Origin: Devosia sp. LC5
GTDB lineage: Bacteria > Pseudomonadota > Alphaproteobacteria > Rhizobiales > Devosiaceae
NCBI RefSeq assembly: GCF_000735585.1
Contig: NZ_JNNO01000044.1
Location: forward strand, 1-64,000
Length of the DNA: 64,000 bases
Direction: 5' to 3'
Shown: in pieces, positions 3 to 58,217 of the stretch
Layout: every line of letters begins with the position of its first letter
Position numbering within the stretch: the stretch's first letter is position 1
The notes under the pieces: generated by a model
Told to the model about the DNA's origin: nothing
Databases searched by the model: none
Seen by the model: the letters and a program-made list of their open reading frames with translations, nothing else
Program-made: the position numbers and the translations under genes

Positions 3-272
3 GCCCGCTTCGGGGAAAAATCGATGCGGCTCTTTACACGCGATCTCGATGAAACCGCAGACCCGGCCGCCATCAAGGCATATTACGCTTCCAAGTTGCC
101 GGGTTGGAGCGAGATGGCCTTGGCCGACGACTTCTACAAGCAGTCTTGGTCATTCGCGCTCATCAGTCCGGACGAGCGGTATGCGTTCGCCGCCATAGCC
201 CTGACGCCGCAAGCTGCCGGGCATGCCGGCATAGTGCCCATGTCCGTGCTCACCAACCTGGGCGCAGACTAG
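3..272 (+). CDS. Unrecognised short or 5'-truncated ORF
   Basis: An open frame runs from the window edge to a TAG at 270-272. It could be the C-terminal end of a longer gene, because there is no stop between base 3 and the ATG at 24. It could also be a small complete gene of 82 residues starting at 24, with GGGGA eight bases upstream. The sequence is rich in Ala, Asp and aromatic residues and has no signal peptide, membrane segment or motif that I recognise. I assign no function. The next gene is convergent and ends at 349. Confidence 0.4.
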   Translation, partial: ARFGEKSMRLFTRDLDETADPAAIKAYYASKLPGWSEMALADDFYKQSWSFALISPDERYAFAAIALTPQAAGHAGIVPMSVLTNLGAD

Positions 273-45205: not shown

Positions 45206-46573
45206 TCAGGCCACTGACCGTCTCTCGCCGGGGTCGGGCACATTGGTGCCTTCGTCGGAATATTGGTTGAGTTTGTTGCGCAGGGTACGGATCGAGATGC
45301 CCAGGATGTTAGCGGCGTGGGTGCGATTGCCCAGGGTGTGATCGAGGGTATCGAGGATCAGGTCGCGCTCCACATCGGCCACGGTGCGGCCGACCAGGGC
45401 CGCGGACATGGTCTGGGCAGTTTGCGCCAATTGGGCCGACAGGGTGCTGGCACTGGCGGCTTCGATCAGGCCCATGCCATCGGGCAAAACGATCGCGTCG
45501 GGGCCGATAATGTCGCCCGGGGAGAGCAGGACGGCGCGATGCAAGGTGTTTTCCAGCTCGCGGACATTGCCGGGCCAGGGCGCCTTGAGCAGGGCATCGC
45601 GGGCTTCGGCGGAGAGGGCGCGTGGGGGCAGCCCGTTCGCCTTGGCGTATTTGGCGACGAAATGCTCGGACAAAGCCACGATGTCGCCGGGGCGGTCGCG
45701 CAGCGGGGGCAGCTTGAGATTGACCACATTGAGGCGGAACAGCAGGTCCTCGCGGAAACTTCCTTCGCGCACGGCCTCGTTGAGATTGCGGTTTGAGGTG
45801 GCCAGGATGCGAATATCAACCGGGACGGGCTTGGTGCCGCCGACGCGGTCGATGATGCGCTCCTGAATGGCGCGCAGCAACTTGGCCTGCAGGCGCACGT
45901 CCATTTCGCTGATTTCGTCGAGCAGCAAGGTTCCGCCCGAGGCTTCCTCGAACTTGCCGATGCGGCGGGCGATGGCGCCGGTAAAGGCGCCTTTCTCGTG
46001 GCCGAACAGCTCGGATTCGAGCAGGGCTTCAGGGATGGCGGCGCAATTGACCGAGATGAAGGGCTTGCCGGCGCGCTTACTACGGGCGTGGACGTGTTTG
46101 GCGATGACTTCCTTGCCGGTGCCGCTTTCGCCCGTGATGAGAATGGAGGCGTCCGAGCCGGCGATCTGCTCGGCCATGCGGACGACACGGTCCATGGCCG
46201 GGTCGCGATAGAGGAATTCGGAGCTGTCGCGGGCAACAGCGGCGATAACGGCAGCTATCAGTTCGGCATCGGGCGGCAGGGGAATGTATTCCTTGGCGCC
46301 GGCGCGGATGGCGTTGACGGCGGCAGCTGCGTTGGTCTCGATGCCGCAGGCGACGACGGGGATGGCGATGCGCTCGGCTTCAAGGCCCGCGATGAGCCCG
46401 GCAATGTCCATCATGACATCGACCAGTAACAGATCGGCGCCGCGCCCGGCGCGCAGGGCCGCAAGCGCGATTTCGGTGGAGGGGGCGTGAGCTACCTTGG
46501 CGCCGCCATCCATGGCCATTTTGGTGGCGGTGCTGAGCTGGCCTTCAAGAGCCCCGACGATGAGGAGACGCAT
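45206..46573 (-). CDS. flbD: Sigma-54-dependent flagellar regulator FlbD
   Basis: NtrC-type activator of late flagellar genes (455 residues). The receiver-like N-domain is at about 1-115, the AAA+ domain at about 125-360 with Walker A GESGTGKE and the sigma-54 loop GAFTGA, and a Fis-type helix-turn-helix at the end (THAANILGISIRTLRNKL). The receiver lacks the paired acidic residues (LIVGALEG) and the conserved Lys (YIPLP), as in Caulobacter FlbD, which is not controlled by simple phosphorylation. Its likely target is the fliK promoter at 53894. Confidence 0.95.
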   Translation of the reverse strand: MRLLIVGALEGQLSTATKMAMDGGAKVAHAPSTEIALAALRAGRGADLLLVDVMMDIAGLIAGLEAERIAIPVVACGIETNAAAAVNAIRAGAKEYIPLPPDAELIAAVIAAVARDSSEFLYRDPAMDRVVRMAEQIAGSDASILITGESGTGKEVIAKHVHARSKRAGKPFISVNCAAIPEALLESELFGHEKGAFTGAIARRIGKFEEASGGTLLLDEISEMDVRLQAKLLRAIQERIIDRVGGTKPVPVDIRILATSNRNLNEAVREGSFREDLLFRLNVVNLKLPPLRDRPGDIVALSEHFVAKYAKANGLPPRALSAEARDALLKAPWPGNVRELENTLHRAVLLSPGDIIGPDAIVLPDGMGLIEAASASTLSAQLAQTAQTMSAALVGRTVADVERDLILDTLDHTLGNRTHAANILGISIRTLRNKLNQYSDEGTNVPDPGERRSVA

Positions 46574-50298: not shown

Positions 50299-50376
50299 GC
50301 CGGCACTCGATTCGAAGGGGGCCACGCGACGCAAACGAACACCGGGACCGATGGGCAAAAATTACCTAGCAGATGG

Positions 50377-50429
50377 TAAACATTGTCTTAACTCCCCGTT
50401 GCAGTTTGCGAATTTGGGCAGAAAGTGCC
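50377..50429 (-). promoter_or_regulatory. CtrA-box-like and FlbD-like sites upstream of fliF
   Basis: TAAA-N7-TTAA at 50377-50391 (plus-strand reading) differs by one base from the CtrA box TTAA-N7-TTAA. GGCA-N5-TGCC at 50417-50429 has the spacing of FlbD inverted repeats. Both are about 80-130 bp upstream of the fliF start. In Caulobacter the fliF promoter is controlled by CtrA and FlbD in the same way. Confidence 0.6.
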
Positions 50430-50455
50430 GGGTTGAGTGAAGGAAAGGTGAAGCG

Positions 50456-51150: not shown

Positions 51151-51429
51151 TCAGCCCTCGCGGTAATGCTGGATCCAGGTGGTCCTGAGGCCGGCAAGGC
51201 CGTGTTTATCGATAGCGGCCTGCCAGTTTAGGAATTCATCGACGCTCAATGTGTAGCGATCGCAGGCCTCTTCAAGGCTGAGCAATCCACCGCGCACTGC
51301 TGCGACGACTTCGGCTTTACGGCGGATGACCCACCTCCGCGTATTGGCGGGGGGAAGGTCTGCAATCGTGAGCGGACTACCGTCCGGTCCGATAACGTAC
51401 TTAACGCGTGGACGCATTTGTACGGTCAT
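51151..51429 (-). CDS. sciP: CtrA inhibitor SciP (DUF1153)
   Basis: SciP is a 92-residue helix-turn-helix protein that inhibits CtrA activity at its promoters. The sequence is nearly the textbook family: MRPRVKYVIGPDGSPLTIADLP then the DNA-binding region TRRWVIRRKAEVVAAVRGGL and DRYTLSVDEFLNWQ. Start ATG 51429 with GAGAG upstream. It lies 214 bp after flgD on the same strand with its own promoter region, which has a CtrA-box-like site, as expected for feedback. Confidence 0.94.
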   Translation of the reverse strand: MTVQMRPRVKYVIGPDGSPLTIADLPPANTRRWVIRRKAEVVAAVRGGLLSLEEACDRYTLSVDEFLNWQAAIDKHGLAGLRTTWIQHYREG

Positions 51430-51642: not shown

Positions 51643-52317
51643 TCAGCTCTCAGTATCGGCGGGCGGAACGCGCACGTCGGTAACGTCCGAGAGCAGGATC
51701 TTGCCCGCCCCGACTGTCAGGATGGGCTGGGCGCCCGAGAAGTCGACGGCGGTGACGACGCCCACCGTGGAGGTCGACACCTTGATAGTATTGCCCGACA
51801 GATTGGTGCCCTTGATCTCGATCGTATAGGTGCCGTCGGGCTGGGTGTTGCCGTCCGAGCCCTTGCCGGTCCACAGGAAATTGCCCGGGCCTTTGTCCAG
51901 CGAGCCGGTCTCGGTATAGACCACGCGGCCATTGGCGTTCTTGATGGTGACGGTGGCATTGGCGACCTGCGCCTCGGCATTGAAGGCCCAGGTGGCGCCG
52001 CCATCCTGGAGTTGAGCGGTGGTGCCGGCGGCGGTCACCTGCTTGCCGATATAGGAGACCGCATCGGTCTTGCTCGAACTCTGGGTGGATTGCAGCAGGC
52101 TTTCGAGGAATTCATTGGTCTTGAGTTGCTGCTCGACGCCGGTGAACTGCACCAATTGGGCGGTGAACTGGTTGGTATCCAGCGGATCCAGCGGGTTCTG
52201 GTTTTTCAGTTGCGTGGTCAGGATGTTGAGGAAGGTATCGAAATTCTCGGCAATGGTAGTGCGCGAGCCGCTGAGGGCACTGGTATTGGAGCTTCCCGAA
52301 ACGCCGTCGACTGCCAT
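51643..52317 (-). CDS. flgD: Flagellar hook assembly protein FlgD
   Basis: Hook-capping scaffold exported by the flagellar apparatus (224 residues). The N-terminal FlgD motif FDTFLNILTTQLKNQNPLDPLDTNQFTAQLVQFTGVEQQLK (about 26-66) is clear, followed by the Ig-like and tudor-like C-terminal part. Start ATG 52317 is preferred over a long frame that is antisense to fliK. It is 11 bp after fliK, in one operon. Confidence 0.94.
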   Translation of the reverse strand: MAVDGVSGSSNTSALSGSRTTIAENFDTFLNILTTQLKNQNPLDPLDTNQFTAQLVQFTGVEQQLKTNEFLESLLQSTQSSSKTDAVSYIGKQVTAAGTTAQLQDGGATWAFNAEAQVANATVTIKNANGRVVYTETGSLDKGPGNFLWTGKGSDGNTQPDGTYTIEIKGTNLSGNTIKVSTSTVGVVTAVDFSGAQPILTVGAGKILLSDVTDVRVPPADTES

Positions 52318-52327
52318 GACCTGATCC

Positions 52328-53851
52328 TTACGCGATAATGTTGACGCCGCTGGCCGTGAGGCTGCCGCGATAAAGGTTGATGGTGGGCGCGGGCGCCTCG
52401 TCGGCTTCGCCGCCGGTTTCGTTGCCGCCGAACAGCGAGGGGCGGCCATTGCGGTCTTCGCCCTGCTGGCCGCCGCCACTGAAGGGGCTCTGCTTCAGCG
52501 AGAATTCGAGATTGGTCTTGGCGCCGTCCAGCCCGGCCTGTTGCAGTGCGCGTTCCAGCCCGCGCTGGTCGCGCTGCATCAAATCGAGGGTTTCGGCCTT
52601 TTCGACCGTGAGGCGTGCATTGACGCGGCCGGAGGCGTCGATATCTAAGCGCACATCGATGCGGCCGAGTTCGGCCGGGTCGAGCCGGATCTGGAAGCGA
52701 GTATTGCCGTCACTGGCCTGGCGGGCGACTTCGAAGGCCAGTTGCGGCAGGTTGAGCTGCTGCTGGCTGGTCTGGTAGCCCGCGTGGACGACGCGAGGGG
52801 CGAGCAGGGGATCGATGCGGGCAGTTTGCTGCTGGGCCTGAGCGGCCTGACCGTCGGGCTGTTGTTTGTCGACGGGGGCCGCGACGGGGATAGCGGTGGT
52901 CTTGAGGTCGCGCTCGGGCGGCTTGCCATTGTCGGGCTGCGGATCGGCATCGCCCTTGGGATTGTCGCCGATGGTGGGCTTGGCCTCGACTTCGGTTTTC
53001 GCGGCAAGCTCAGGCTCAGCCACGGGTTCGGTCTTGGCTTCAGCGGTTTTGCCGGTGATGGCCGGTTCGGTCAGCTTGAGTTCGGGCGCCGCCAGCGGTT
53101 GGGCGTTGGCGGTGGTTTCAACCTTGATGGCGGTACTGGCGGCGAGCCTGTCGAGTGCGGCCTGCAGCTCGGGATCGAGCTCGGCGCTGGTCGGATCCAT
53201 GCCGAGGGCAGCAAGCGCTTCGGGTGCGGCATCGCCGGCACTGAGATTCTTGGCGAGGGCCGCGAGTTTATTGCCCATATCGGCCAATTGCTGGGCGAGT
53301 TCGGCATTGGCCGAGACATCGGTGGCCGCATTGCCGCCTTGCAGCGATAGCGCGAGCGGGGCGAGAGCCTTGGCCAATAGATCGGTGGCGCTGGTGCCGG
53401 CCGCGCCATTGGCCAGGGCTGTCAGCTCTGCCGCACTGGGCAGGCTATCGAACGAAACGCCCAGGGCCTGGGCCAGTGCCTCGAGCGCCGCGGTGAGATC
53501 GGCCATTTCCTGGTCGGTTGGGGCTTTGCCCGCCTCAAGGCTAGCGCTGAGCCTGGCGAGGCGATCGAGCAGGTCTGCCAGTTTGCCTTCGGGCGGGGCC
53601 GGCTGAATGGGCGTGGCGGCATCGACAGCAGCAGCAACGGCCTGCGGATCGTCGGCTTTGTGGTCCTCAGCATCCGCACTGGGTTTGGACGGTTCGCTGG
53701 CGGGTGTGGGCTTGGCGGGAGCGGGCGCAGATTTGCTGACATCGTCGAGCAGTTCGGCAAAGGCGTCTTGCCGCGGCAGAGCCTGGCCACCGAGGCTCTT
53801 GCTGAGAGTGCCGGTGGCGGTTGAGGTCAAGACGGTCAGATTTGATGCCAC
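52328..53851 (-). CDS. fliK: Flagellar hook-length control protein FliK
   Basis: Hook-length ruler (507 residues). It is a long Ala/Pro/Lys-rich, low-complexity central stretch, typical of FliK, with a C-terminal Flg_hook domain (about 385-480: FQIRLDPAELGRIDVRLDIDASGRVNARLTVEKAETLDLMQRDQRGLERAL) as its functional end. The start is GTG 53851 with no clear ribosome site. A sigma-54 promoter lies 43 bp upstream. It is followed by flgD, whose hook function it complements. Confidence 0.92.
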   Translation of the reverse strand: MASNLTVLTSTATGTLSKSLGGQALPRQDAFAELLDDVSKSAPAPAKPTPASEPSKPSADAEDHKADDPQAVAAAVDAATPIQPAPPEGKLADLLDRLARLSASLEAGKAPTDQEMADLTAALEALAQALGVSFDSLPSAAELTALANGAAGTSATDLLAKALAPLALSLQGGNAATDVSANAELAQQLADMGNKLAALAKNLSAGDAAPEALAALGMDPTSAELDPELQAALDRLAASTAIKVETTANAQPLAAPELKLTEPAITGKTAEAKTEPVAEPELAAKTEVEAKPTIGDNPKGDADPQPDNGKPPERDLKTTAIPVAAPVDKQQPDGQAAQAQQQTARIDPLLAPRVVHAGYQTSQQQLNLPQLAFEVARQASDGNTRFQIRLDPAELGRIDVRLDIDASGRVNARLTVEKAETLDLMQRDQRGLERALQQAGLDGAKTNLEFSLKQSPFSGGGQQGEDRNGRPSLFGGNETGGEADEAPAPTINLYRGSLTASGVNIIA

Positions 53852-54111
53852 GCTAAGCGGACCCGTGAAGTGAGATTAATCCGGGAACAGCACTGCAAGA
53901 GGGGTGCCAAGTGGCGGATGCACCCATTGTTGTTTTAATTCAATGAGTTGAACTCCGCGTGGGACAGCGTCAGCAGGTCCCGCCCCGGCAGAAAAAGCAA
54001 GCGGCGGCAATTGTTGCCGGGTGTTGCAGCGCATTGCACGAGCGGGCGGAAGGGAGTATGGAGCGGGCCTTAAATTCGTCCGCTGGCCCTTGAACCCAAC
54101 CGGATAAAGGA
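53852..54111. promoter_or_regulatory. Control region between fliK and mnmA
   Basis: On the minus strand the sequence TTGGCAC-CCCTC-TTGCA (53894-53911) is a very good sigma-54 promoter, with GG and GC at the required spacing. A palindrome CGGCAA-TTG-TTGCCG is at 54005-54019, about 100 bp upstream, the usual distance for an enhancer-binding protein such as FlbD, and a partial copy (CGGCAGAAA) is near 53986. A TTAA at 53936 is also present. The plus-strand mnmA promoter must also be here, but I see no clear consensus. Confidence 0.75.
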
Positions 54112-55266
54112 ATGATGTTGAACTCGCTTGATATTGCCAAGCGTCCCGAAGACACGCGCATTGTTGTCGCGATGTCGGGGGGCGTGGATTCTTCGGTCGT
54201 GGCGGGCCTGTTGGCCCGGCAGGGTTATGACGTGGTTGGGGTGACGCTCCAGCTCTACGATCATGGCGAAGCCACCCACCGCAAGGGCGCGTGCTGCGCC
54301 GGGCAGGATATTCATGACGCGCGGCGCGTGGCCGCGACGCTGGGTATTCCCCATTATGTACTCGATTATGAAGAGCGCTTCAAAAAGAGCGTGATTGCGC
54401 CCTTCGCCAATGCCTATCAGCAGGGCGAAACGCCGGTTCCGTGCATTGCCTGCAACCAGTCGGTCAAGTTCGTCGACCTGATGGCGGTGGCACAGGATTT
54501 GGGTGCTGACGCCCTGGCGACGGGGCATTATGTGCAGAGCAAGCTGGGTGCGGATGGGCGGCGGCAGCTGTTCCGGCCGGTCGATGCAGAGCGGGACCAG
54601 ACCTATTTCCTGTTTGCCACCACGCAGGAGCAGCTCGACTATTTGCGCTTTCCCCTGGGCGGCATGGGCAAGGCCGAGGTGCGCGAGATGGCGCGTGAGA
54701 TGGGGCTGGAAATCGCTGAAAAGCACGACAGCCAGGACATCTGCTTCGTGCCGCAGGGCAAATATGCCGACATCATCCGCAAGATGCATCCCGAGGCGGT
54801 AGCGACGGGCGAGATCGTGCATCTCGACGGCCGCGTACTGGGGACGCATGAGGGGATCGTCAATTATACGATAGGGCAGCGCAAGGGCCTGGGCATTGCG
54901 GCGGCTGAGCCGCTGTATGTGATCAAGCTCGAACACAAGACCGGCCGCGTCATAGTGGGGCCGCGCGAGGCGCTCAAGACTCATACAGTGCGCCTGCGCA
55001 ATGTGAATTGGCTGGGTGGCCGGCCTTTGGCGGAACTGAGCGCCGGCAATGGCGCGCCGGTCGAGGTCAAGGTGCGTTCGACGCGCGGTCCGCAGCCCGC
55101 CGTAGTGCAGATGCGCGGCGAAGATGTCTTCGTAACGCTGGTGTCAGGCGAATACGGCATTTCGCCGGGCCAGGCCTGCGTATTTTACGCCGACGATACG
55201 CCGACCTCGGAAGTCTGGGGCGGCGGGTTTATTGCAGAAGCGGTGCCGGCGGTGTTTGCAGCCTAG
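54112..55266 (+). CDS. mnmA: tRNA-specific 2-thiouridylase MnmA
   Basis: Thiolates uridine 34 in the wobble position of tRNA-Lys, Glu and Gln, receiving sulfur through TusE or a similar carrier. It has 384 residues. The ATP-binding P-loop [15 protein letters not shown] is near 19-33, the tRNA/catalytic Cys sites are in [11 protein letters not shown] (near 107) and [13 protein letters not shown] (near 205), and the central domain motif is [11 protein letters not shown]. The ATG 54112 follows AAAGGA, with a second ATG three bases later. It is a housekeeping gene unrelated to the flagellar genes. Confidence 0.96.
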
Positions 55267-55426
55267 GCGGAGAACTCCTTCTCCTTGTTTGGGGGAAGGT
55301 AAGCGCCGATGAAGCGAACGGGTGAGAGGTGCGGCAAGCACTGTAAAACCCGCCGGTCCGATACATGGTTGACATATAAGCCAGTTAGCACCGCCTCCGG
55401 TTATTATCTCACATCCGGAGAGCTTG

Positions 55427-57340
55427 ATGCTTTTGCGAAATCTGAGCCTGTCGACAGCACTTGCTTTGGTGCTGACATGCGGCGCCATTGCCGATGATTT
55501 GCCTGCGCGGCCCAGTGGGCTGGGTATTGTGGACAGTGCGCCTGTCGCCGCCGACGTGCCCGCTTACGTGGATTTTGGTGCGACCAATCAGCGGGGCAAG
55601 GCCTGCATGTCCGATGTCGCGGGCAATGCGGGCGTGCGCCTGCTGTCCGGGTTTCTCGATGTGTGGACGCCCCATACCCCGTTTGTCGATGCCGATGTGG
55701 ACGCGCCCGCCGAGGGTGATTGCCCGGCTGTCGCGATGACGGACTGGGACGGGGTTCCCGGCAGCGCCACGGACGGGACGGTGATGAATGCCGCGATCCA
55801 CGCGGCCAATATTGACTACGTGATCGATATTACGGCGTTGCGAACGCAGAACGAGGCCGTGCTGGCTTATCTCGATGATCGCCGCGGCAAGAATGTCAGC
55901 ATGATGGATGGGTTGGGGCCGCTGGCAGATGCCTGGCGCGCGGGTGCCTGGCAATCCTCGACCATCGCCTATGTAGCGGCCGACGCGACCAGCGTGAAAT
56001 ATGACGATAACGGCAATAATCGCGGCGTCGGCAGTGTGGTGGACGGCGAGAAGGCCAATACGGATCTCGGTCTTGCCGTTGACCTGATCAAGGCGGCCAG
56101 CGCCGATGGTTCGACCGAACCGGCCAAACGCTATTTCAAATATGCCCGTCCGTGGCGCTGGTCCATGGACGTGTCAGTGCTGCCGGCGCTGGAGCCGGCC
56201 AAGAGCGGCTCGGCCCGAACCGATGGCGGGTTTCCGAGCGGCCACACCGCCGAAGCCTGGCGCGATGGGCTGGCACTGGCCTATCTGGTCCCTGAGCGCT
56301 TTCAGGAAATCCTGACGCGGTCAGTGGAAATGGGCGATAGCCGCATCCTGGCGGGTATGCACTCGCCGCTCGATGTCATTGGCGGCCGCATGCTGGGCAC
56401 GGCCGTCGTGGTCTACAATCTTAACCGGCCCGAGAATGCCGAGCTCAAGCAGGATGCCTACGCCCAGGCGCAGAGCTGGCTGATGCGCCAGACTGGCACG
56501 CAAACGCCCGATGGCCTTTATGCTGCGGCCCATGCCGCGCCGGTTGGCGAGGACAGGTTTGCCGATCCGGCAGCTAATCTGGCCTATGTTTCGGGGCGGA
56601 TCAGCTATGGCCTGGCGCCAGTGTCCGACACGTCTGCTCCAGCTGTCGTGCCCAAGGGCGCCGAAGTGTTGCTTGAAACGCGCCTGCCTTATCTCAGCGC
56701 CGAACAGCGTCGCGTCGTGCTCAAGACCACCGCCTTTGCCGCTGGCTATCCGGTGATGAATGATGCGGAGGGTTTTGGCCGTCTCGACTATATCCGGGCA
56801 GCCGATGGTTACGCAGCCTTCGATGGCGACGTTACCGTGCGCATGGATGGTGCGCTGGGCGGGTTCAATGCCCGCGATACGTGGCGCAATGATATTGCCG
56901 GCAAGGGCATGCTCACCAAGCAGGGCAGCGGCAGCCTGGTTCTGGCCGGTGCCAACAGCTATTCGGGCGGGACGGTAATCGAGGCGGGGAGCCTGGTCGC
57001 GGACAGTTCCGATGCGCTGGGCGACGGCGATGTCTATCTTGCCGGCGGCACGCTGGAAATCGGACGGGATGGCGTGGCGTTGAAGGGCGACTATGTGCAA
57101 CTTGACGGCGCCGTGCTGTCAATCACAGGCGCATCGCTCGAAGAGGCCGCCATGGCGGTCAGTGGAGACGTGGTGATCGAGGGCGGCGTACTCGATATCC
57201 GGGTGCCAGCGCGCTCAGGCACGGTACAGGTCATTTCTGCCCAGGCCATCAAGGGCCGTTTCGCCGAAGTGCGTGTTAACGGCCAGCCGGTGGAGGCCAG
57301 CTACGGTGAGACGGGCGTCAGCGTGGCCATGGCCAACTAG
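55427..57340 (+). CDS. Exported PAP2-type acid phosphatase with an autotransporter-type C-terminal repeat
   Basis: A 637-residue secreted protein with a signal peptide of about 22 residues. A PAP2/haloperoxidase catalytic core (about 205-350) carries all three signature motifs: K-X6-RP (KRYFKYARP), PSGH (GGFPSGHTAEAW) and SRILAGMHSPLD. After a spacer comes a passenger-type beta-strand repeat (LTKQGSGSLVLAGANSYSGG near 506) and similar beta-rich sequence to the end. There is no translocator barrel domain, so it is not a complete autotransporter. The ATG 55427 follows GGAGAG. It probably hydrolyses phosphomonoesters outside the cytoplasm. Confidence 0.88.
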   Translation: MLLRNLSLSTALALVLTCGAIADDLPARPSGLGIVDSAPVAADVPAYVDFGATNQRGKACMSDVAGNAGVRLLSGFLDVWTPHTPFVDADVDAPAEGDCPAVAMTDWDGVPGSATDGTVMNAAIHAANIDYVIDITALRTQNEAVLAYLDDRRGKNVSMMDGLGPLADAWRAGAWQSSTIAYVAADATSVKYDDNGNNRGVGSVVDGEKANTDLGLAVDLIKAASADGSTEPAKRYFKYARPWRWSMDVSVLPALEPAKSGSARTDGGFPSGHTAEAWRDGLALAYLVPERFQEILTRSVEMGDSRILAGMHSPLDVIGGRMLGTAVVVYNLNRPENAELKQDAYAQAQSWLMRQTGTQTPDGLYAAAHAAPVGEDRFADPAANLAYVSGRISYGLAPVSDTSAPAVVPKGAEVLLETRLPYLSAEQRRVVLKTTAFAAGYPVMNDAEGFGRLDYIRAADGYAAFDGDVTVRMDGALGGFNARDTWRNDIAGKGMLTKQGSGSLVLAGANSYSGGTVIEAGSLVADSSDALGDGDVYLAGGTLEIGRDGVALKGDYVQLDGAVLSITGASLEEAAMAVSGDVVIEGGVLDIRVPARSGTVQVISAQAIKGRFAEVRVNGQPVEASYGETGVSVAMAN

Positions 57341-57549: not shown

Positions 57550-57662
57550 CGGAAGACCTCAAAATAAATCTGCTCAGAACCACCAAAGGAGCGGGCGGGC
57601 AGCGGCGTCTTAGCACTATAAGAGGCCCAAGGTTAAGGCTTGCGCGAGTGTTTGCCCCCGTG

Positions 57663-58217
57663 ATGGGACTGTCTGCCGCACCACAGATCGATCATGCCGG
57701 TGCGCTGACGCGGGCGCTGGTCGTTCGCGCGCAGAATGGCGATGCTGCCGCGTTCGGCGAGCTGATCGAGGATCACTATGACCTGATCTACCGCACGGCC
57801 TGGAAATGGTGCGGCAACCGCACCGATGCCGAGGATGTGGCGCAGGATGTGTGCGTCAAGCTGGGCGCGGCGATTGGCGGGTTCGATGGGCGTAGCGCCT
57901 TTTCAAGCTGGGTCTATCGCATCACGCTCAATGCGGTGCGCGACATGCAGCGGGCGGCCAGCCGGCGGAACAAATATGCCGATGCCTATGCCGAGGTGAG
58001 CCCCGAAGATCACCCCGCCGACCAGGAGGATGCGGCGACCTCGCACCAGCTCTGGGCGGCGGTGCGGGAATTGCCCGAAAAGCAACGCGACGCGGTGTTG
58101 CTGGTTTATGCGGAGGAATTGAGCCACGCGGCGGCGGCCGAGATCATGGGCATCAAGGAGGCCACGGTCTCCTTCCATGTGCATGAGGCACGCAAGACCC
58201 TAAGGGGGCTGCTATGA
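57663..58217 (+). CDS. ECF RNA polymerase sigma factor
   Basis: Sigma factor of 184 residues with region 2 (AFGELIEDHYDLIYRTAWKWCGNRTDAEDVAQDVCVKL) and region 4 (LPEKQRDAVLLVYAEELSHAAAAEIMGIKEATVSFHVHEARKTL). The ATG 57663 is taken; a GTG at 57648 would add five residues. Its stop overlaps the ATG of the next gene, a membrane-anchored von Willebrand A protein, so they are co-translated. That neighbour may act as, or contain, its anti-sigma factor. Confidence 0.92.
   Translation: MGLSAAPQIDHAGALTRALVVRAQNGDAAAFGELIEDHYDLIYRTAWKWCGNRTDAEDVAQDVCVKLGAAIGGFDGRSAFSSWVYRITLNAVRDMQRAASRRNKYADAYAEVSPEDHPADQEDAATSHQLWAAVRELPEKQRDAVLLVYAEELSHAAAAEIMGIKEATVSFHVHEARKTLRGLL

Follow-up and report, generated by a model that had tools for sequence, protein, structure and literature searches.

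Upstream of the hook-length control gene fliK in Devosia sp. LC5, a sigma-54-type promoter sequence and an FlbD-like palindrome lie close together, which raises the question of whether they form a flagellar promoter activated by FlbD or whether the palindrome serves another protein or the gene on its other side. The window, i.e., the whole stretch of 64,000 nucleotides that was analyzed, contains a flagellar gene cluster, the first gene of which downstream of these elements is fliK (52328–53851, minus strand), assigned by a Pfam match (PF02120, 55.1 bits; cut-off 29.8) and without an NCBIfam match. It is followed on the same strand by flgD, encoding the hook cap (51643–52479, minus strand; PF03963, 66.9 bits, cut-off 27; NCBIfam FlgD models below their cut-offs), the ORF of which overlaps the end of fliK and probably has its true start further in, and then by sciP, fliF, fliG, a fliH-like gene (below its NCBIfam cut-offs), fliN, flbD, and flhA. 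The divergent neighbor of fliK is mnmA (54112–55266, plus strand; NCBIfam NF001138 (PRK00143), 429.9 bits, cut-off 284).

Two side features of the gene content were also recorded. The sciP gene (51151–51429, minus strand; NCBIfam 137.9 bits, cut-off 100), encoding a CtrA inhibitor of the DUF1153 type, is located between flgD and fliF and provides a link between the cluster and the cell-cycle circuit of CtrA; most of the named FlbD loci considered below likewise had a sciP match just upstream of fliF. Elsewhere in the window, a gene with a PAP2 phosphatase domain and a passenger-associated-transport repeat (55424–57340, plus strand) adjoins a gene for a sigma-70 family (ECF-like) factor (57648–58217).

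A promoter and a palindrome upstream of fliK

Sigma-54 promoters have GG at −24 and GC at −12, separated by ten bases, in the context TGGCAY-N5-TTGC. On the minus strand, the sequence TTGGCACCCCTCTTGCA (53894–53910) contains the core TGGCACCCCTCTTGC (53895–53909, minus strand), in which GG-N10-GC is intact and which matches the pattern exactly, bearing out the near-ideal −24/−12 element described in the initial annotation. The core lies 44 bp upstream of the fliK start (GTG at 53851, minus strand). The palindrome, which had been placed about 100 bp upstream of the promoter, was likewise present: CGGCAATTGTTGCCG (54005–54019, with no strand assigned) is a perfect palindrome and an exact match to the ftr-like pattern of a predicted FlbD enhancer, and its distance to the −24/−12 element is 110 bp, center to center. 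Caulobacter enhancers lie approximately 100 bp from their promoters. A possible second FlbD half-site, TTCTGCCG (53986–53993, minus strand), is located approximately two helical turns from the palindrome. Among the 79 Devosiaceae loci in which the promoter and palindrome were paired (see below), a second TGCC occurred 18–22 bp past the first in 48, and no second TGCC was found 15–30 bp away in 29.

The promoter pattern alone occurred in the window at the frequency expected by chance (6 matches with ≤1 mismatch in 64 kb, against 6.68 in shuffled sequences), and this count led us to reject any significance drawn from that pattern by itself. The exact promoter pattern was found once, with 0.15 matches expected from base composition. 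The palindrome was weakly enriched (13 matches with ≤2 mismatches, against 7.1; 2 of 100 shuffles reached 13), and its exact form occurred once, with 0.007 matches expected from base composition. Across the 4.20-Mb genome, there were 20 exact promoter patterns, compared with 10 for the reversed control, and 64 places with a palindrome of ≤1 mismatch, compared with 34 for the control. The exact palindrome occurred at six places, and the two whose context was examined, fliK and flgF, were flagellar.

The initial annotation had also proposed a genome search for further copies of both motifs. When the two were combined in a relaxed pair (GGCAN5TGCC-gap-TGGCN7TTGC), the genome contained two matches with a gap of 80–110, compared with one for the reversed control, and likewise two against one with a gap of 66–96; with a gap of 97–127, no pair was found and the reversed control gave two. 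Only fliK and the hook gene were preceded by a relaxed pair in the genome (gap 66–127), so the search added one further pair. The hook gene, on another contig (C23, L046:4193–4307), carries its own pair of the FlbD/sigma-54 type; its product matched the FlgE/F/G subfamily (233.3; cut-off 70.25), with FlgE, below its cut-off, as the best equivalog. By eye, two or three FlbD-like sites were visible in the hook-gene promoter. The spacing of the hook-gene pair was 100–101 bp in 15 of the 16 loci read and 98 bp in one (search window 80–110), and it was nearly invariant in the family, unlike the spacing at fliK, which changes in steps. On contig C11, weaker promoters were accompanied by palindromes at 90/104 bp upstream of flgF, a gene assigned by its PF00460 match and its position, and at 99/142 bp upstream of flgI. 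One flagellin gene was found with Flagellin_N (L054:2514–3911, contig C11, minus strand), and the 400 bp upstream of it contained no −24/−12 match with ≤2 mismatches. A GTTAAC sequence lies near the start of this gene.

Conservation in Devosiaceae and in more distant relatives

An MnmA match was obtained in 96 of 101 Devosiaceae genomes, and the upstream stretch was read in 90 loci, of which 87 had a fliK or flgD match upstream of mnmA. At these 87 loci, a promoter with ≤1 mismatch was present upstream of fliK in 82 and a palindrome with ≤2 mismatches in 81, and both elements occurred 71–136 bp apart in 79, compared with none in 20 rounds of dinucleotide shuffling. The promoter–palindrome pair, unlike the promoter pattern alone, exceeds chance. 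Among the eight misses, five (L109, L111, L115, L126, and L148) had a relaxed pair at 120–122 bp, L144 had a promoter with two mismatches at 88 bp, and L123 had a promoter and no recognizable palindrome. The remaining miss, L077, comes from a 2.0-Mb genome of the same genus (G094), in which one of the two Gs at −24 of the fliK promoter is changed and only a weak palindrome is present; the flagellar system of this small genome may be decaying. Of all 101 family genomes, 97 yielded a total of 167 matches to the relaxed pair with a gap of 66–96 (reversed pattern: 3), and 75 yielded 121 matches with a gap of 97–127 (reversed pattern: 19), although the two reversed controls differ from each other and some of the pair matches resemble coding sequence, so that neither control is an exact background.

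The pair is also found in more distant relatives. We retained 80 named FlbD loci, 64 of which had fliK or flgD; the pair preceded fliK or flgD in 51 of these 64, and no pair was found at the thresholds used in the other 13, which included Methylobacterium, Maricaulis, and Kordiimonadales. Before fliK, it was present in Bradyrhizobium, Stappia, and Roseibium and, weakly, in one Caulobacter relative (CGGCAAAAAGCGCCG, with 2 mismatches to the palindrome used here). The suggestion in the initial annotation that the arrangement is informative about the lineage, given that most studied rhizobia use other regulators, consequently carries little weight: the window is from Devosia, and Bradyrhizobium has this element upstream of its own fliK.

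An IHF-like site and the helical register of the spacings

Between the enhancer and the promoter lies an element that the initial annotation did not contain, an IHF-like site, CAACTCATTGAAT (53938–53950, minus strand), with 1 mismatch to YAANNNNTTGATW, which we take to be the IHF consensus and used as such for scoring. The spacers between the two elements diverge widely (the 79 spacers form 41 clusters at 65% identity), although a CAACCCATTGAAAT-like sequence is kept in the middle of them. With the fixed consensus, searched on either strand, 43 of the 79 spacers had a match with ≤1 mismatch, against 3.4 expected from shuffles, and 68 had a match with ≤2 mismatches, against approximately 25. 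An IHF profile recognized 75 of the 79 loci (score >6), against 8.4 expected in shuffled spacers; the same 79 loci served for both training and scoring of the profile, and the fixed consensus, which requires no training, shows the same. The site in the window has the top profile score. At the level of motifs, then, the IHF site of an FlbD-type class III promoter is present, and the genome encodes both IHF alpha (132.7; cut-off 111) and IHF beta (146.7; cut-off 115), according to NCBIfam.

The distances between the elements were not distributed evenly. The total spacings fell mostly into the classes 88–91, 99–102, 110–113, 121–124, and 133–136 bp (all pairs per locus counted), with 71, 83, 115 (four times), and 119 bp outside them. 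When the spacing was split at the IHF-like site, the enhancer-to-IHF arm measured 58–60 bp in 26 loci, 69–71 bp in 33, 79–81 bp in 9, and 91–94 bp in 5 (73 of 75; the exceptions were 62 and 73 bp, one locus each), and the IHF-to-promoter arm measured 30–31 bp in 20 loci and 40–43 bp in 52 (72 of 75; the exceptions were 26, 33, and 59 bp, one locus each). Both arms change in steps of approximately 11 bp, i.e., one helical turn, with best periods of 11.1 and 11.3 bp, and they vary separately, a total of 101 bp being reached both as 59+42 and as 70+31. Such a register is expected of a loop in which FlbD has to meet the polymerase on the correct face. When the arm classes were placed on the MnmA tree, the minimum number of class changes was 17 in the enhancer–IHF arm and 7 in the IHF–promoter arm; under a cost function of our own choosing, 22 of the 25 inferred changes of at least 4 bp deviated from a multiple of 11 by no more than 2 bp, compared with approximately 11 expected, and three were off register. 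When only one locus per spacer cluster was retained (41 loci), R was 0.83 at 11.3 bp, compared with a maximum of 0.57 in 5000 jittered sets.

The two-sided helical register is the most interesting part of the finding. We consider it more probable than not that the fliK promoters of Devosiaceae and their Hyphomicrobiales relatives constitute a natural indel series, which would record a two-sided helical-phase rule for an FlbD loop bent by IHF: the arms change independently by about one turn while the sequence between them diverges, suggesting that selection holds the geometry and not the sequence. The 11-bp steps could instead reflect turnover among tandemly arranged FlbD sites, or the common descent of a few spacings, and the second TGCC in the 48 loci described above would suit such an origin, as would the spacings common to related genomes, in which the spacers reduce to 41 clusters. 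However, steps of 11 bp, and not only of 22 bp, were observed; the IHF–promoter arm, which is expected to lack an FlbD site, also steps by 11 bp; the same total is reached by two routes; and the register persists over the 41 clusters and over the parsimony changes on the tree. An origin without looping geometry is therefore unlikely in our view, although it deserves some weight.

Outside Devosiaceae (L162 onwards), 24 of the 40 paired loci had a forward IHF match with ≤1 mismatch; these 24 are not independent, because 13 of them are from Bradyrhizobium. By hand count, 22 of the 24 had arms of 57–60 or 68–72 bp on the enhancer side and 31, 38–43, or 53 bp on the promoter side, the 53-bp arm occurring once, in L201, one turn more. 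The other two, L165 (73+18) and L228 (63+35), had a strong IHF match but were off register. Spacings of 95–97 bp outside Devosiaceae were considered as a break of the 11-bp register; when split at the IHF site, they were 57+38 (twice) and 57+40, short of the Devosiaceae classes by one or two bases.

FlbD as the predicted activator and comparison with known systems

The predicted activator is encoded in the same cluster. The statement in the initial annotation that the window encodes FlbD with a GAFTGA loop proved correct: flbD (45206–46573, minus strand) encodes an enhancer-binding activator that matched the FlbD equivalog model NF050807 of NCBIfam (819.1 bits; cut-off 750) and contains GAFTGA and a helix-turn-helix. 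This FlbD shares 93% identity with its counterparts in Devosia epidermidihirudinis and D. ureilytica, and the DNA-binding helices (GNRTHAA.ILGISIRTLRNKL) are almost unchanged across eight sequences, ranging from Devosia to a Caulobacter relative. The genome has one match for RpoN (PF04552, 221.8 bits; cut-off 22.8), and a fliX gene adjoins flgI (PF10768, 110 bits; cut-off 25), its product being below the cut-offs of all five matching NCBIfam FliX models.

The promoter might depend on sigma-54 while the palindrome is bound by a different enhancer-binding protein, for example one of the NtrC type; the genome contains six strong and two marginal PF00158 (Sigma54_activat) matches, and the flagellar link of the palindrome comes from a minority of its genome copies. 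This is very unlikely, given that the palindrome recurs at fliK, the hook gene, flgF, and flgI and upstream of fliF, that flbD is in the same cluster, and that the DNA-binding helices of FlbD are nearly invariant where the fliK loci keep the palindrome. That the palindrome, located 92 bp away from the start of mnmA and in a region where fliK or flgD so regularly neighbors mnmA (87 of 90), is an operator of mnmA or a shared bidirectional element that stands upstream of the fliK promoter by chance was rejected as least credible of all, because among the 79 paired loci its distance to mnmA varies between 51 and 416 bp and shows little 11-bp register (R = 0.35, over the same periods as for the fliK spacing), whereas its distance to the fliK promoter does keep that register, because neither element is present in the 600 bp scanned at L099 and L118, which are readable and have no fliK or flgD match upstream, and because the same pair precedes the hook gene, far from mnmA.

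The preferred reading, to which we assign a probability of approximately 0.87, is that these elements make up a class III flagellar promoter of a known kind, run by FlbD, IHF, and sigma-54. The sequence elements, their conservation and register, and the genes for FlbD, FliX, RpoN, and IHF were observed directly, and the initial interpretation as a sigma-54 promoter with an FlbD enhancer before fliK–flgD is supported at the sequence level by the conserved pair at fliK, the second pair at the hook gene, the GAFTGA-containing FlbD, and the encoded RpoN, FliX, and IHF. For binding, looping, activation, gating by FliX, and repression of fliF, we draw on Caulobacter, as described in the accessible parts of two papers (PMC3096577, PMC3930126), and on general knowledge of sigma-54 activators.

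In the scheme that we propose, FlbD would bind the palindrome, and perhaps also the weaker adjacent half-site, approximately 100 bp upstream of the promoter, with sigma-54 RNA polymerase held at the −24/−12 element. IHF would bend the DNA between enhancer and promoter, allowing FlbD to reach the polymerase through its GAFTGA loop, and ATP hydrolysis by FlbD would then open the promoter of fliK–flgD. Gating of FlbD by FliX, which would report that the MS-ring/switch/export apparatus is complete, is probable, as is repression of fliF by FlbD via sites beside a CtrA box.

Upstream of fliF, a CtrA-like box, TTAAGACAATGTTTA (50377–50391, minus strand), matches TTAA-N7-TTWA, which we take to be the CtrA box consensus. 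Above it lies an FlbD-like site with 3 mismatches, CGGCACTTTCTGCCC (50416–50430, minus strand), and a weaker FlbD-like site is located at 50353–50367 (minus strand). Among 75 named loci, 38 had a CtrA-like box upstream of fliF (0.5% of shuffles) and 70 had an FlbD-like palindrome with ≤3 mismatches (9% of shuffles). In Devosiaceae relatives, the box and the two FlbD-like sites of this region (50353–50430, minus strand) occur at near-fixed distances. The combination of CtrA-like and FlbD-like motifs at fliF agrees, as motifs, with a Caulobacter-type hierarchy, and the region resembles the ftr4 feedback site in Caulobacter, where, according to the accessible part of PMC3930126, early genes are turned on by CtrA and fliF is repressed by FlbD.

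The accessible part of a further paper states that class III/IV transcription in Caulobacter requires sigma-54, IHF, and FlbD (PMC3096577), and the class III promoters of Caulobacter crescentus and the Devosia promoter are alike in activator family, sigma factor, and IHF, just as the CtrA-like and FlbD-like motifs at fliF are comparable to the ftr4 scheme (PMC3930126). The Devosia system is not a full copy of that of Caulobacter: the one flagellin gene found has no visible −24/−12 match, and FliX passed only its Pfam cut-off. The gene layout differs as well: L205, a Caulobacter relative, has fliK, flgD, and flgE grouped next to flgK, whereas the Devosia fliK gene runs divergently from mnmA, and the hook gene and its own pair are found on a different contig.

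The subpolar flagellum of Bradyrhizobium offers a parallel in gene order, since it shares the arrangement mnmA–fliK–flgD–sciP–fliF–fliG–flbD, with the promoter and palindrome before fliK. By hand count, 11 of the 15 paired Bradyrhizobium loci have 70+42 bp around the IHF match, and their −24 element is TGGCCC, compared with TGGCAC/TGGCAA. FlbD and FliX have reportedly been described, by Dardis et al. in 2021, as class II regulators of this flagellum. Devosia itself is listed with a subpolar and without a lateral flagellar system in the accessible part of PMC6406911.

The helical-phase record is not the first of its kind, as there is one published precedent that we found, in the qrr genes of Vibrio. 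The accessible part of that study describes 61 natural sigma-54 enhancers under LuxO, with loop lengths of approximately 80–120 bp clustered in steps of approximately 11 bp (PMC4740811), which is the feature shared with Devosiaceae. The activator and the gene are different; the arrangement described in that part consists of a tandem of LuxO sites, a looping region, and a promoter, and IHF is not mentioned there (PMC4740811), whereas in Devosiaceae each of the two arms flanking the IHF-like site shows the register on its own. A search of the open-licence literature found no previous description of this arrangement for Devosia.

With these results, Devosia joins the bacteria in which an FlbD–IHF–sigma-54 circuit appears to control the hook genes. 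The promoters form a family-wide set in which, between three short motifs, it is mainly the helical rotation that is kept, and the rule that the enhancer protein must face the polymerase becomes testable on natural variants. Three motifs in register also provide a practical rule with which to search genomes for FlbD targets.
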